DNA of 64,000 bases. It comes from Haloprofundus salinisoli (GTDB lineage Archaea; Halobacteriota; Halobacteria; Halobacteriales; Haloferacaceae). This document shows, in pieces, positions 10,362 to 27,380 of this stretch (position 1 is the stretch's first letter; each line of letters begins with the position of its first letter). The position numbers and the translations under genes were made by a program. The notes below the pieces were generated by a model. That model saw only the letters and a list, made by a program, of their open reading frames with translations. It was not told the origin of the DNA and ran no database searches. The stretch covers positions 62,001 to 126,000 of the forward strand of contig NZ_CP083663.1 of NCBI RefSeq assembly GCF_020097815.1, given 5' to 3'.

Positions 10362-11429
10362 CTATCGAAGCTCCCAGAACGCCTTCATCTCGTTAGAGAG
10401 GTTTAGGAAGTTGAACGCCCAGTAGAGCGGACTCGTCCCCTGCTCGAGTTGGTACGCAAGTTCTCCTCGGCGAGATTCTCCGGGTGCAATTTCCGACCCT
10501 TCGGAATATCCCTGGCTTAGCTGTGACGACCCACCGATATCGGCCATAAAGGCGAGCCCCGAACCATCTTTGACGCGCATCTGGAGGACGGTGGAGACGC
10601 TGAGGGGTTCTTCGGTATTGTTCGTGATCTCGATATCCGGGATGACGTACTCGTTTCCGTCCTCCGCCTGCGTGAACGAGCCGAGTTCGGTCTCGGTGCG
10701 TACTCCGTGAAGGGTCACCGAAACGTCCTCGTGGTCGACAGCGTCACCGGGAGAGTGGACATCTACCTGAAGCGATTGCTCGAGATCCTGAATCGAGTCG
10801 GCCTTCGACTCCAAGTCTACTGTCACCCGCTCGAACTCGAAGAAGTCGAACGTGCTGAAATCGAACTGCATGGTTAACCCCCTAGCGTCCTTCGGAACCT
10901 CGAACACAACGTCTCCTCGCGCGACCTCTCCTGCTGCTAGAATTCCGCTTTCTATGGGGTGGCCGGTGCTCCCAAAGGAAGCGTCGTAGACGTGGTTCGA
11001 GTTGTCTTTGAGGCGAGCCTGGAGGAAGCTGTTGAAATCAACGAACTCCGAGCCGGTGTTCTTCACTGCCATTCGAACGATTGCAAACGTGTTGCCGCTC
11101 TCGGCTTCGGTAAATTCGCTGATTTTCTCGGTCTTCGTCACCTCACGGGCGACCATCGAGAGGTTCTCTCCCTCAACCATCTCGCCGAGCTTGACGTTAG
11201 CCTCCTGTTGTTGGTTGCTCTCTTCCGACGCAGATTCGGAACCTGATTCACTAGCGTCGTCAGTTTCTGCGGACGCCGTCGACTGAGCGTCCGATCCTTC
11301 TTCGCCTCCCCCAATCGACTCCTCCGCAGCGGTGTCGTCTGTATCACTACACCCTGCGAGCGCAGCAAGAACACCCACACCGGCCACGAGTGTTTTCCTA
11401 CGTGTCGTTGAAATATGGTTTCCTTCCAT
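10362..11429 (-). CDS. Tat-exported lipoprotein with two DUF4352-like domains
   Basis: A protein of 355 aa. The N-terminus STTRRKTLVAGVGVLAALAG with Cys just after is a twin-arginine signal plus lipobox. An acidic Ser/Glu/Asp-rich linker (about residues 30-75) follows. Two similar beta-rich domains (about 80-200 and 215-355) each carry a T-E-x-G-N-x-(F/Y)-(A/V)-I pattern, an N-T-G/N-N-T segment and a later R-G-(D/E) motif, as in DUF4352. It is an extracellular membrane-anchored protein of unknown function. Base composition is lower in GC than its neighbours and the upstream region is AT-rich, which may point to transfer. Confidence 0.8.
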   Translation of the reverse strand: MEGNHISTTRRKTLVAGVGVLAALAGCSDTDDTAAEESIGGGEEGSDAQSTASAETDDASESGSESASEESNQQQEANVKLGEMVEGENLSMVAREVTKTEKISEFTEAESGNTFAIVRMAVKNTGSEFVDFNSFLQARLKDNSNHVYDASFGSTGHPIESGILAAGEVARGDVVFEVPKDARGLTMQFDFSTFDFFEFERVTVDLESKADSIQDLEQSLQVDVHSPGDAVDHEDVSVTLHGVRTETELGSFTQAEDGNEYVIPDIEITNNTEEPLSVSTVLQMRVKDGSGLAFMADIGGSSQLSQGYSEGSEIAPGESRRGELAYQLEQGTSPLYWAFNFLNLSNEMKAFWELR

Positions 11430-11544
11430 ACAGGTCACACAAACAGGGTCTATTCTAAAGTTATGACACCAATACTATAATTAGGCTGATCTGACGACTC
11501 CGCGAGAAAACATAATCTAACTGTGTGTTCGGTAAAGCAACCTT

Positions 11545-11733
11545 TTAACGTCCGTTCATCAGTCCCGCTCGCCCGAGCGTGACCAAAACGAGATAACCGA
11601 CGATTCCAACGGCGAAGATCAGCACCGGAATGACGAACGGGCCGAACGTCGAAACCAGCGTCTCTATCGGCCCGAGTTGGAGGATGAGTTCCGAAACCGG
11701 TTGCCAGACGACCGCCGAGACGACGGAGACCAC
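11545..11733 (-). CDS. Small hydrophobic membrane protein
   Basis: A protein of 62 aa from a GTG at 11733; a TTG at 11784 would overlap the MscS gene, so I prefer the shorter form. An amphipathic N-terminal helix precedes one strong membrane segment (FVIPVLIFAVGIVGYLVLVTL) and the tail GRAGLMNGR. It lies directly downstream of the MscS channel gene on the same strand, so the two could be cotranscribed. I do not know its function; small membrane proteins of this design are common in haloarchaea. Confidence 0.6.
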   Translation of the reverse strand: MVSVVSAVVWQPVSELILQLGPIETLVSTFGPFVIPVLIFAVGIVGYLVLVTLGRAGLMNGR

Positions 11734-23279: not shown

Positions 23280-24323
23280 TCAGAACGTCATCGGCGGCAT
23301 GTCGAGAAACGCCGTCTCGAACCCCTCGTGGCGCGCCGACTGCGGCGGCGTGTCGACGACGAGTTCGAGGTCGTCGTCCGCCGAGAGTCCCTCGACGTTC
23401 GCGCCGTAGTGGAAGCCGACTTCGGGGTCCAACGCCGGGTCGAGCGAGACGTCGGTGCCGCCGACGGTCGCCGACAGACCCATGCTCGGAATCACGAGTC
23501 CGTTGTGGGGCGTCCGCGGCGAGACGAGGAGGTAGGGACGGTCGCCGAAGCGGCCGCCGGGGACGGCGGTGACGGCGAAGACGGCGTCGCCGCTGGTCTG
23601 GGTACCGAACGACTCGCCCGGTAGCGCGTCGGGTGCGGGGGCTCTCCCGACGGGCATCGTCATCCCGCTGGGCATCTCCATCTCCATCGCTTCGAGCGCG
23701 CCGGGGTTCCCCTGTCGGTCTTCGAGTATCGTGTACGGGATGTCGTTTCGCTCGCGCTCGCTGTACTCGAACTCCAGTTCGACGCTGGCGGGTTCTTCGA
23801 ACTTTCCCTCGAACTCGCCGAATCGACGGACGTTCGTGCCCCCGACGTCGACGCGGACGGTGTAGGTTCCGTCGCCCGGTAGCGGCCAGTTGTCGCCGTA
23901 GTGAAAGCCCATCCGCTGCGAGAGCATCTCGTAGACGACCTCCTCCTCGCGGTACTCGTCGCCGTCGGTCGTTTCGACCGTGACGCCGCTACTGGGGATG
24001 CTGACTCCCGACGCGGCGTCCCAGACGCTCACCATAAGGTGAATCGCGTCGTTCCGCCCGACGTCGACGCGCTCGGTCTGTTGGCCCTGGACGGTCCAGA
24101 AGCGGTGCGGCCAGCTGTACATCACACCGACGGCGAGCTCGCCCGTGTTCGCCATCCCCACCATCTTCATCCCCTCCTCGTGGGTCGGGATGTAGGAGGC
24201 GGACGGACGGTTCTCCACGAGCGGCGGTTCTCGGCTGGTCGTCGTCTCGAAGAGGTCCGTACAGCCCGCGAGCGAGCCTACGAAACCGGCACCGACAGTG
24301 CCGAGAAGGGTCCGTCGTCTCAT
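23280..24323 (-). CDS. Tat-exported P19/Tp34-like lipoprotein (metal transport)
   Basis: A protein of 347 aa. A twin-arginine signal (MRRRTLLGTVGAGFVGSLAG plus Cys) gives a membrane-anchored lipoprotein. The lobe ending at about residue 155 carries FHYGDNWPLPGDGTYTVRVD, which closely resembles the P19/Tp34 (iron_transport) family. A second partial copy, VGFHYGANVEGLSADDDLEL, lies near the C-terminus. Between them is a Met-rich segment (MEMEMPSGMTM), reminiscent of Cu(I) or Fe ligands. P19 proteins bind copper and iron and help high-affinity ferrous iron uptake. The metal here is inferred. Confidence 0.78.
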   Translation of the reverse strand: MRRRTLLGTVGAGFVGSLAGCTDLFETTTSREPPLVENRPSASYIPTHEEGMKMVGMANTGELAVGVMYSWPHRFWTVQGQQTERVDVGRNDAIHLMVSVWDAASGVSIPSSGVTVETTDGDEYREEEVVYEMLSQRMGFHYGDNWPLPGDGTYTVRVDVGGTNVRRFGEFEGKFEEPASVELEFEYSERERNDIPYTILEDRQGNPGALEAMEMEMPSGMTMPVGRAPAPDALPGESFGTQTSGDAVFAVTAVPGGRFGDRPYLLVSPRTPHNGLVIPSMGLSATVGGTDVSLDPALDPEVGFHYGANVEGLSADDDLELVVDTPPQSARHEGFETAFLDMPPMTF

Positions 24324-24411
24324 GAACGCGACTAAGCCTATCGTGCAGTTACGGGTTCTGGTCCGGTTCTCGAAGAAACGCGTCCACGCGCGGACCTCCG
24401 GTGGGCGGCGC

Positions 24412-24924
24412 TCACTGTTCGAGCAACCCGTCGACGAGTCGCGTGAAGCGGTCGACGAATCGCTCGGGCAGCGACGGCGACACCGACGATAGCAGGCGAG
24501 CGGTTGCTTCGGGGTGCGCCAGCGCGAGCGTCACGTGGCCGCGGCTATCGTAGCGCTTCTCGACGATCGACTGCTCTTCGAGGCGCTTGGTGTGCCACGA
24601 GAGCGTGCTTCTGGCGATGCCGACTTCGCCGGCGACGTCGGTGGGCGTCGCTTCGCCGCGTTCGAGGAGGACGCCGAGCACGTCGCGGGCCGTCTCGCGG
24701 CGCACCAGTGCCAGCACGCCGCGTTCCCACTCGTCGAACGTCGACGGGTAGTAGTGGGTCTTGCCGTACAGACGCGTCTCCGCGACCCGCTCGTCGCGGC
24801 CGAGTCGGCGGAGGTGGTACTGGACCTGCCCGGGCGCGAGGTCCAGCGTCCGGACGAGTTCGTTGAAGTGGACGCCCGGGTTGTGCCGGACGTGCGCCGC
24901 GATACGGTTGCGCGTCGCGCTCAT
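24412..24924 (-). CDS. Two-domain winged-helix transcriptional regulator
   Basis: A regulator of 170 aa with two winged-helix domains in tandem. The first (about residues 5-60) has HFNELVRTLDLAPGQVQYHLRRLG; the second (about 75-140) has ATPTDVAGEVGIARSTLSWHTKRLE. This architecture is common in haloarchaeal ArsR/MarR-like repressors. It overlaps the upstream membrane-protein gene by 4 bp (ATGA) and lies upstream of the P19-like lipoprotein gene in the same orientation. I infer control of the local metal-related genes; the ligand is unknown. Confidence 0.88.
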   Translation of the reverse strand: MSATRNRIAAHVRHNPGVHFNELVRTLDLAPGQVQYHLRRLGRDERVAETRLYGKTHYYPSTFDEWERGVLALVRRETARDVLGVLLERGEATPTDVAGEVGIARSTLSWHTKRLEEQSIVEKRYDSRGHVTLALAHPEATARLLSSVSPSLPERFVDRFTRLVDGLLEQ

Positions 24925-25256
24925 CGTCGCTCACCCATCGGCGACGCCCGTTCGATGCTGCGCGCGTAGTACACCGCCGCGATGACGAGGGCGACCATCA
25001 CGAAGTCGAGCGCGTGTTCGATGGCGTGGTGGGAGGGAAACGGGATGACGCCGCCGATGGTGAGGACGGCGACGCCGCTTCGGGCCAGAAGCGCCGCGAG
25101 CGCCAAGACGACGAGCGTGTGCGAACGCGACTGCCGGCGCAGCAGCGCGATGAGCCCGACGGCGACGATGAGCGTCGAACTGAACCCCGCCAGCACGACG
25201 GCGGCCACCTCCGGAGCGCTCATCGTGGGAGCGGCGTGTACTGCGAGCGAGTGCAT
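24921..25256 (-). CDS. Three-helix membrane protein paired with regulator
   Basis: A protein of 111 aa with three hydrophobic segments (about 16-40, 47-69, 82-99) and a His-rich turn PSHHAIEHALDF between the second and third. The last four bases overlap the regulator gene, so the two are translationally coupled. Such regulator plus small membrane protein pairs recur in haloarchaea, but the function is not known to me. The ATG at 25256 is used; an internal one at 25223 is also possible. Confidence 0.7.
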   Translation of the reverse strand: MHSLAVHAAPTMSAPEVAAVVLAGFSSTLIVAVGLIALLRRQSRSHTLVVLALAALLARSGVAVLTIGGVIPFPSHHAIEHALDFVMVALVIAAVYYARSIERASPMGERR

Positions 25257-25420
25257 CTCTATCTGTCCGAGGTTAGGCGTCGACGGTTATGGCTTGATTG
25301 GTGTGGTTCTCGAAAGAGGTCGACGGCGAGTTCGCAGCCGCCGCCGGTCGCGTTCTGCGGGTTATTCCGTTCGACACCCGCACCAGAACCCCTATCCGCG
25401 AAACGCTCCTAGCGACGACG

Positions 25421-26716
25421 ATGAGTCCGGGGACCGACGAGTGGAGTCGCAGAGACGTGTTGAAAGCCGCCGTCGCCGTCGGCGGCGCGGGTGCGCTCTC
25501 GGCCTGTCTCGACCTCACCGACGAACCCGTTCCGGCGGGCATCTCCGACCCCTCGACGCTACCGGAACGACAGCACGCCTGGGACGATCTGCTCACGCGC
25601 GACGGCGCGGAGAACGTCGAACTCCCGCGGCACCATACGTTTCTGTATCTGACGCTCGACCGCGAGGGGACGCCGACGTCCGCGGACCGCCGCGTGGTCG
25701 AAGAGGCGCTGTCGACGCTGGACCGCGCCTACGAGCGGAGCAACGAGGGTCTCATTCACTCGCTCGCCTTTTCGCCGGCGTACTTCTCGCGCTTCGACGA
25801 CCCGCTTCCCGAGAACGTCGACCTGCCGGAACCGCGGGCGCTGTCACCGTTCGAGAACCCGACGTTCGACAGACAAGACGCCCTCTTACACTTGACCAGC
25901 GACCGCGCCGACGCCCTGTTGGAAGCCGAGGAGGCGTTGACCGGCGAGCGGGACACCGCGAACGGCGTGGCGATGGAGACGCCGCTGTCGGCCGCGTTCT
26001 CCGTCGACTCCCGGCGAACGGGGTTCATCGGCAAGGGCATGCCCGCCGAGAAACAGGACGTGGCGGGAGTCCCCGACGGTGACCCGGTGCCCGAGGAGTC
26101 GCCGCTGTTCATGGGGTTCAAGGCGGGGTTCGCGGGAAATCAGGCGACCGAGGAGTACGTCACCATCCCCGACGGGCCGTTCGCGGGCGCGACGACTAAA
26201 CACGTCTCGAAACTCCGCCAGCGACTCGAAGACTGGTACGTCGAGCAGGATTTCGACGACCGGGTCGCCGAGATGTTCAGCCCCGAACACGCCGAACGCG
26301 GCCTCGTCGAGGGCGTCGGCGACAACCTCGGCGACCACAGCGGCGTGACGCCCGAGATCGTCGACCGCATCCGCGAGCACGCCCAGCAGTACGGCCGCGT
26401 CGGCCACGCTCAGAAAGCCGCCCGCGCCAACCGCGACGACGAGGGGAACGTCCGGCTGCTGCGACGACACGTCGAGTCGACCGACGAGGACGAGGCGAGC
26501 CTCCACTTCCCGACGCTCCAGCGTCACATCACCGACTTCGAGGAAGTGAGAGAGGCGATGAACGGCACCGACCTCACGGACGAACCGGCAATCCGGCAGC
26601 GGGTGAACAACGGGATTTTGGAGTACATCTTCGTGAAGAACCGCGGGAACTTCCTCGTGCCGCCGCGTCGCCTGCGGGCATTGCCGACGCCGACGGGCGA
26701 AGTTCCGGAGTTGTAA
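25421..26716 (+). CDS. DyP-type-peroxidase-like Tat lipoprotein with altered GxxDG motif
   Basis: A protein of 431 aa. A twin-arginine signal (WSRRDVLKAAVAVGGAGALS plus lipobox Cys) is followed by a DyP-like ferredoxin-fold pair. Similarities include FLYLTLDREG, FSPAYFSRFDDP, QDALLHLTSD, the segment IPDGPFAGATTKHVSKLRQR, a candidate proximal haem His329 (GHAQKAARAN) and the C-terminal FLVPPRRL. The catalytic GxxDG motif appears as GFKAG (232-236), so the distal Asp is Ala. Either haem chemistry has changed or the protein is a binding or scaffold relative. The ATG at 25421 directly precedes the signal peptide. Confidence 0.72.
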   Translation: MSPGTDEWSRRDVLKAAVAVGGAGALSACLDLTDEPVPAGISDPSTLPERQHAWDDLLTRDGAENVELPRHHTFLYLTLDREGTPTSADRRVVEEALSTLDRAYERSNEGLIHSLAFSPAYFSRFDDPLPENVDLPEPRALSPFENPTFDRQDALLHLTSDRADALLEAEEALTGERDTANGVAMETPLSAAFSVDSRRTGFIGKGMPAEKQDVAGVPDGDPVPEESPLFMGFKAGFAGNQATEEYVTIPDGPFAGATTKHVSKLRQRLEDWYVEQDFDDRVAEMFSPEHAERGLVEGVGDNLGDHSGVTPEIVDRIREHAQQYGRVGHAQKAARANRDDEGNVRLLRRHVESTDEDEASLHFPTLQRHITDFEEVREAMNGTDLTDEPAIRQRVNNGILEYIFVKNRGNFLVPPRRLRALPTPTGEVPEL

Positions 26717-26730
26717 CCCCTCCCGCTGGC

Positions 26731-26952
26731 TCAAACCGCCACGACCGCGAGATAATCCACAGCGACAGCACCGTGTAGCCGACCATCAGCGTCGCCAGCG
26801 GCGCGTGGGAGGCGAGCGCTGCCTGAGTGACGGGCGCGACCCCGAGAGACGACGTCGGCGATGACGGCGGCGGTGACGACGGCGACGCCCGCGACGGCGA
26901 CGAGCGCAACGGAGAGAGCGAAGAGCGCGACGGTGATCGGTTCGTCCGTCAA
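26731..26952 (-). pseudogene. Frameshifted small membrane protein gene
   Basis: From an ATG at 26952 the frame encodes one membrane helix (ITVALFALSVALVAVAGVAV), then loses hydrophobicity after a GGGG tract (minus strand, 26840-26843). A shifted frame then encodes a second convincing helix (LATLMVGYTVLSLWIISRSW). Splicing the two frames by one base gives a coherent two-helix protein of about 85 aa. This suggests a one-base insertion, a sequencing error in the G-run, or frameshifting. The 3' end is uncertain because no matching stop is near. Confidence 0.55.
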
Positions 26953-27014: not shown

Positions 27015-27380
27015 ATGCCTACCGTACAGTTCCGCGGACGCGAGATCGACTGCGAGGAGGGGGCGGTGCTGCGCGACGTGTTACTCGCGGCGGGGCTCTC
27101 GCCGCACAACGGACGCGCGCGGCGACTGAACTGCCGAGGTCGCGCCACGTGTGGCACGTGCGCCGTCGAGGTCGACGGGAAGGTGAGCGAGATGATCAGC
27201 CGAGAGCGGCGACGTCTCTCGCTTCCGCCGCACAGCCTCGACTCGGGGCTTCGACTCTCCTGTCAGACCCGCGTCGAAGGTGACGTACGGGTGAGAAAGC
27301 ACGAGGGCCTCTGGGGCCAGCACGTCGACAGTGAGCGCGTCGTCTCGGAGGAGCGCGACGACGCGACCGGTCGCGTCTGA
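27015..27380 (+). CDS. 2Fe-2S plant-type ferredoxin
   Basis: A protein of 121 aa. It has the cluster motif Cys40-x5-Cys46-x2-Cys49 (LNCRGRATCGTCAVEV) and a distal Cys83 (LSCQTRV), matching beta-grasp plant/adrenodoxin-type 2Fe-2S ferredoxins. It is an electron carrier, soluble and cytoplasmic. The ATG at 27015 gives the normal N-terminus (MPTVQFRGREIDCEEGAVL). It sits downstream of the DyP-like gene and convergent with the hydroxyacyl-CoA dehydrogenase, 6 bp apart. Confidence 0.92.
   Translation: MPTVQFRGREIDCEEGAVLRDVLLAAGLSPHNGRARRLNCRGRATCGTCAVEVDGKVSEMISRERRRLSLPPHSLDSGLRLSCQTRVEGDVRVRKHEGLWGQHVDSERVVSEERDDATGRV

Follow-up and report, generated by a model that had tools for sequence, protein, structure and literature searches.

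A haloarchaeal locus encoding a tandem P19-like lipoprotein and a DyP-like lipoprotein: a candidate extracytoplasmic copper-handling module

Gene content of the locus

The locus lies in the window, i.e. the whole stretch of 64,000 nucleotides of Haloprofundus salinisoli DNA that was analysed. The P0003 and P0002 genes overlap, P0001 comes after them on that strand, and P0004 is divergent (Table 1). A previous sequence-only reading had described a P19/Tp34-like Tat lipoprotein, a two-domain winged-helix regulator coupled to a three-helix membrane protein and a divergent DyP-like Tat lipoprotein between positions 23280 and 26716. All these features were found where it had placed them, except the start of P0004: TTG 25298 merely opens the reading frame, and both the Tat signal and the homology to congeners begin at ATG 25421. 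The genes it had listed stand, with two additions: the relic of a membrane-protein gene lies directly beyond its end point, and P0001 has two P19-like domains. A 2Fe-2S ferredoxin (Fer2) gene is found just downstream at 27015-27380, a gene which in congeners lies beyond the genes of a membrane protein, F4, and of a propeller protein.

Table 1. Features of the locus (positions in the window unless another locus is named)
Feature	Position	Strand	Remarks
P0001, Tat lipoprotein, apparently two P19-like domains in one chain	23280-24323	-	PF10634 residues 106-186, DUF7350 residues 232-347
Promoter motif TTCGAGAACCGGACCAGAACCCGTA, upstream of P0001	24350-24374	-	core invariant in five congeners
P0002, two-winged-helix regulator (HTH_HVO_0163_N + wHTH)	24412-24924	-	92-94% identity in four congeners
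P0003, DUF7471, three-helix membrane protein	24921-25256	-	4-nt overlap with P0002
Partial motif TTCGA-N7-ACCA, upstream of P0003	25299-25314	-	same place in aligned congeners
Promoter motif TTCGACACCCGCACCAGAACCCCTA, upstream of P0004	25370-25394	+	26 nt 5' of P0004 start codon
P0004, DUF7405, DyP-like Tat lipoprotein	25421-26716	+	C29, H329, R348/R349 invariant; Ala at DyP catalytic Asp
F4 relic, 3' end of polytopic membrane-protein gene	26731-26901	-	
F4 paralogue / cytochrome c oxidase subunit III pair	L172:9103-10557 and 10670-11551		

P0001, a tandem P19-like protein

P0001 begins with a twin-arginine/lipobox start (MRRRTLLG...SLAGC) and matches the PF10634 Iron_transport family with 27.2 bits, above the curated cut-off of 21. 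The first half of P0001 also gave a weak match, below the cut-off, to the DUF7350 model when the genome was searched. When compared profile against profile, the two halves of the protein align to each other (probability 96.5, E 8e-10). Against bacterial P19 proteins, domain 1 reaches a probability of 95.7 and domain 2 gives a weak match, at 55. A profile built from 38 P0001 relatives retrieves FtrA from the PDB (E 1.1e-5), and a Foldseek search with the AF2 model (pLDDT 79, pTM 0.79) yielded 28 matches at E<=0.001, all belonging to the P19 family. P0001 is therefore a P19/Tp34-like Tat lipoprotein, as first proposed, on the evidence of PF10634, FtrA and Foldseek, and the alignments of its halves and domains, taken with the last two, suggest that it looks like a P19 dimer fused into one chain.

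The copper-site ligands of P19 are presumably His42, Met88, His95 and His132. In a remote alignment, P0001 appears to have counterparts of His42, Met88 and His95 within domain 1, and of His95 and His132 (RHxxxET) within the weakly matching domain 2. It shares the fold and extracytoplasmic export, and apparently these ligand counterparts, with P19, FtrA, FetP and Tp34, but differs from them by its two domains per chain, its Tat signal and lipid anchor, the methionines in place of iron-site acids and the lack of an FTR1 partner. In P19, an iron analogue is held by Glu3, Glu44, Asp46 and Asp92 (PMC9174327). This acidic site is not retained in the P0001 family: M97 and M138 align with Glu44 and Asp92 and are Met in 38/38 relatives, the Asp46 column holds Ser, Thr or Val, and Glu3 is unalignable. 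Met-rich linkers are present in two congeners, His-rich linkers in Natrarchaeobius-type relatives (loci L131 and L132) and a Met-rich N-terminal insert in the relative of locus L115. Together with the methionines replacing the iron-site acids, these linkers and the insert point to a soft-metal site in P0001.

P0004, a DyP-like lipoprotein

The PDB matches of a profile built from 61 P0004 relatives were mainly DyP proteins, all weak (best E 0.033). Using hhalign, the DUF7405 profile matched an alignment of 12 bacterial DyPs with a probability of 98.6 (E 6e-16), collinear over 340 columns, a result obtained with the 12-member alignment, EfeB alone giving a probability of 1.5 against the same profile. 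Leaving out the signal region gave a probability of 97.8, and a reversed control gave 0.1. Consistent with the earlier description of a DyP-like protein, these profile-profile comparisons indicate that P0004 is a distant DyP/EfeB relative; some of its relatives are also named Dyp-type peroxidase in public annotation.

In this alignment, EfeB GFKDG faces P0004 residues 232-236. The column of the catalytic Asp (GXXDG) is occupied in the 61 relatives by Ser (35), Ala (24), Thr (1) and Asn (1). H329, the presumed haem His, and R348/R349, of the distal Arg type, are invariant in 61/61 relatives. P0004 thus resembles EfeB and other DyPs in its 340-column match, its Tat export, its proximal-type His and its distal-type Arg, and departs from them by Ser or Ala at the GXXDG Asp in 59/61 relatives, by its lipobox and by its membership of a haloarchaeal family, DUF7405. 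Haem binding appears plausible, and ordinary peroxidase chemistry is in doubt because the catalytic Asp is lost. P0001 and P0004 are both distant members of known families, failing some of their defining features.

GFIGKG (201-206) had been considered as the GXXDG motif of P0004 and was dropped, the alignment placing that motif at 232-236. A BURRH repeat match, the sole one in a single-sequence PDB search, was judged spurious. The AF2 model of P0004, computed from 11 sequences, has a pLDDT of 34.9. The genome also encodes a second, more distant DUF7405 protein (L121; G000:C1:1839246-1840238, minus strand) with 39% identity and no tandem-P19 gene nearby.

Distribution and linkage of the two lipoprotein families

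Among the 292 haloarchaeal genomes of the class, DUF7405 is present in 261 and DUF7350 in 254. Both are found in 253 genomes, DUF7405 alone in 8, DUF7350 alone in 1 and neither in 30. Many of the listed absences fall in one genus, so that they represent few independent events. Haloferax volcanii, used as a control genome, carries DUF7405, DUF7350 and DUF7471. The tandem-P19 gene is located at most 8 genes from DUF7405 in 47/71 loci, with a median distance of one gene, and the two genes are no more than 3 kb apart in 25 of the 40 sampled genera. The neighbourhood analysis proposed with the sequence-only reading therefore gave a conserved neighbourhood. No matches were found among the viral contigs scanned. 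Tyrosine recombinase genes occur near several DUF7405/F4 loci (L128:7975-9042, L154:3818-4909 and L155:4821-5915) and may help the module move.

The regulator pair and a shared promoter motif

P0002 carries an HTH_HVO_0163_N domain and a second winged helix, and its gene overlaps that of P0003, of which each of the five genomes of the genus has a single copy; the coupling of a two-domain regulator to a three-helix membrane protein is thereby confirmed. Five species of the genus have the sequence ACCAGAACCC[C/G]TA upstream of P0004 as well as of P0001. The 3.42-Mb genome contains exactly two copies of this core, one in the P0001 promoter and one in the P0004 promoter. Its wider form, TTCGA-N7-ACCAGAAC, recurs across genera. 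As an exact regular expression it was detected in 21/71 DUF7405 regions and 22/53 tandem-P19 regions, a set that includes the congeners in which the motif was first spotted. By comparison, it was detected in 1.3% of random 500-bp pieces from the same loci and in 0/60 regions of five other neighbour families. The partial motif upstream of P0003 was not found across other genera. P0002 and P0003 probably control both lipoprotein genes via TTCGA-N7-ACCAGAAC, to which P0002 would bind. Relaxing the motif gave six further matches in the genome, none with a convincing gene. A TTCGA-N7-ACCAGAA site followed by TTTT is located at G000:C2:350283-350301 (L180), with no convincing gene downstream.

The membrane protein family F4

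F4 proteins are polytopic, of ~490 aa, with about nine hydrophobic segments in a simple hydropathy scan, and the family has no Pfam or NCBIfam match. An F4 gene was found inside the 20-kb regions of 12/40 genera; in Halomicrococcus, F4, DUF7405 and tandem-P19 genes follow one another on a single strand. Intact F4 and beta-propeller genes separate P0004 from the ferredoxin gene in three of five congeners. In the window species and one sister species the propeller gene is gone and F4 has decayed to a stub beside P0004, reduced to its 3' end (81% identity over 32 aa). The rest of the locus has been kept in the window species despite the loss of the neighbouring F4, so that F4 is dispensable at this place. 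The same genome has an F4 paralogue at about C1:241 kb whose gene is oriented divergently from that of cytochrome oxidase subunit III (COX3), and this pair is present in all five congeners. COX3 is also found near P19/F4 in another genus, and F4 adjoins a heavy-metal (HMA) ATPase gene in Haloferax mediterranei. Bacteria (Variovorax, Mycolicibacterium, Rhizobium, Sulfitobacter) also have F4 relatives, which are annotated as hypothetical.

No match to the FTR1/EfeU permease (PF03239) was detected in the window genome. P0003 had been put forward as a possible permease, a proposal that was not upheld: the protein is small, its gene is translationally coupled to that of the regulator, and relatives carry the larger F4 as a transporter-like partner. 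The missing permease is probably not P0003, and F4 may be the protein performing transport.

Copper handling and the alternative explanations

We propose that these genes make up a module for handling copper outside the cytoplasm, which most likely acquires or delivers the metal, a reading of metal and direction to which we give a probability of about one half. Both iron and copper had been named in the sequence-only reading; from ligands and gene context copper is favoured, and iron less so. Plasmid copies of the module genes sit with genes for an HMA P-type ATPase, a multicopper oxidase, plastocyanin and DsbD-like proteins, and COX3 and CtaA genes are among the neighbours of the module. These copper-linked contexts, the methionines at the iron-site acids, the F4 paralogue-COX3 pair and the absence of FTR1 all argue for copper. 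Several observations run against it: those PF10634 proteins whose function is known act in iron uptake, the ligand mapping comes from a remote alignment in which domain 2 matches P19 weakly, the plasmid-island neighbours include ZIP-like and cation-efflux genes, which are not copper-specific, about one third of DUF7405 loci are without a tandem-P19 gene nearby, and the window species retains the rest of the module without an adjacent F4.

The membrane-anchored tandem-P19 protein would capture copper, probably Cu(I), at a Met/His site built from both P19 domains. The DyP-like lipoprotein, presumably haem-bound, could then contribute a redox step, or protection while the transfer takes place, and F4 (here perhaps the paralogue beside COX3) would carry the metal across the membrane or hand it to cuproenzymes. 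The regulator and its three-helix partner would set expression of both lipoprotein genes through the shared motif. Tentatively, F4, the tandem-P19 protein and the DyP-like protein could form a haloarchaeal copper import or delivery route, in which a new membrane family replaces FTR1 and the P19 iron site has been turned into a copper site.

Ferrous-iron uptake in the manner of EfeUOB or FtrABCD, with the tandem P19 binding Fe(II), the DyP-like protein oxidising it and a membrane protein other than FTR1 importing it, would agree with the roles of characterised P19, FtrA and EfeB in iron uptake systems and with the one-strand row of Halomicrococcus. We nevertheless consider it unlikely in view of the Met residues at the aligned iron-site acids, the absence of FTR1, the copper-linked gene contexts and the lost catalytic Asp of the DyP-like protein. 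This last feature, which makes P0004 a doubtful peroxidase, also weighs against defence from oxidants or metal stress, in which the lipoproteins would sequester copper or quench peroxide or hypochlorite at the cell surface and not supply metal. Efflux-type genes in the plasmid islands point towards such a defence, as does the ArsR-type regulator HVO_0163, more abundant under hypochlorite (PMC10294847), its tie to P0002 being the name of the HTH domain. Presence in most haloarchaeal genomes and the COX3/CtaA neighbours fit supply better, and we regard defence as rather improbable.

The P0001/P0004 unit is not due to chance: the two lipoprotein families are jointly present or absent, they are linked in 25/40 genera amid varying surroundings, and they share a promoter motif specific to them. 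That these genes are neighbours without a common function, gathered by chance or gene-dense synteny, is accordingly most improbable, even if about one third of sampled DUF7405 loci, and the second DUF7405 gene of the window genome, have no tandem-P19 gene nearby.

Relation to known systems

We know of no copper importer in haloarchaea, and the module is therefore a testable candidate. Most haloarchaea carry this module, with its own motif and copper-type ligands, and it would make this gap testable in Haloferax volcanii; a single hypothesis would also join three DUF families to a membrane family that has no name. A quantitative model of copper in Halobacterium had to assume an 'unspecified' importer (PMC3551603), and the terms 'P19' and 'iron transporter' are absent from the text of a survey of the copper machinery of Haloferax mediterranei (PMC9240420). 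In agreement with its presentation as possibly unreported, no description of the locus was found in the open-access literature, a corpus without most subscription papers; in the same corpus, the tandem P19, the combination of P19 and DyP, the motif and the F4 partner are undescribed, and no paper naming DUF7405, DUF7350 or DUF7471 was found, while one names HVO_0163.

The domain identities and the conserved locus support the earlier view of a mix of FtrA/FetP-type and EfeB-type components with a dedicated regulator. As in EfeUOB and FtrABCD/FetMP, an extracytoplasmic metal binder is associated with a DyP or P19 protein and, in relatives, with a polytopic membrane protein. Unlike these systems, the module combines P19 with DyP, has neither FTR1 nor EfeO, involves the membrane family F4 and displays copper-type ligands. 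A precedent that favours copper is the Streptomyces DyP protein DtpA, whose gene shares an operon with sco and ecuc and whose mutant is rescued by copper (PMC4736821). The sco-ecuc-SLI_4212-dtpA operon resembles the proposed module in that a Tat-exported DyP protein acts with extracytoplasmic copper chaperones, but these are Sco and ECuC and not P19, the Streptomyces operon comprises four other genes and DtpA is reported to be an active peroxidase. On a Paenarthrobacter plasmid (L163:1-1371), a Dyp-type peroxidase gene comes directly after a gene for the copper chaperone PCu(A)C.
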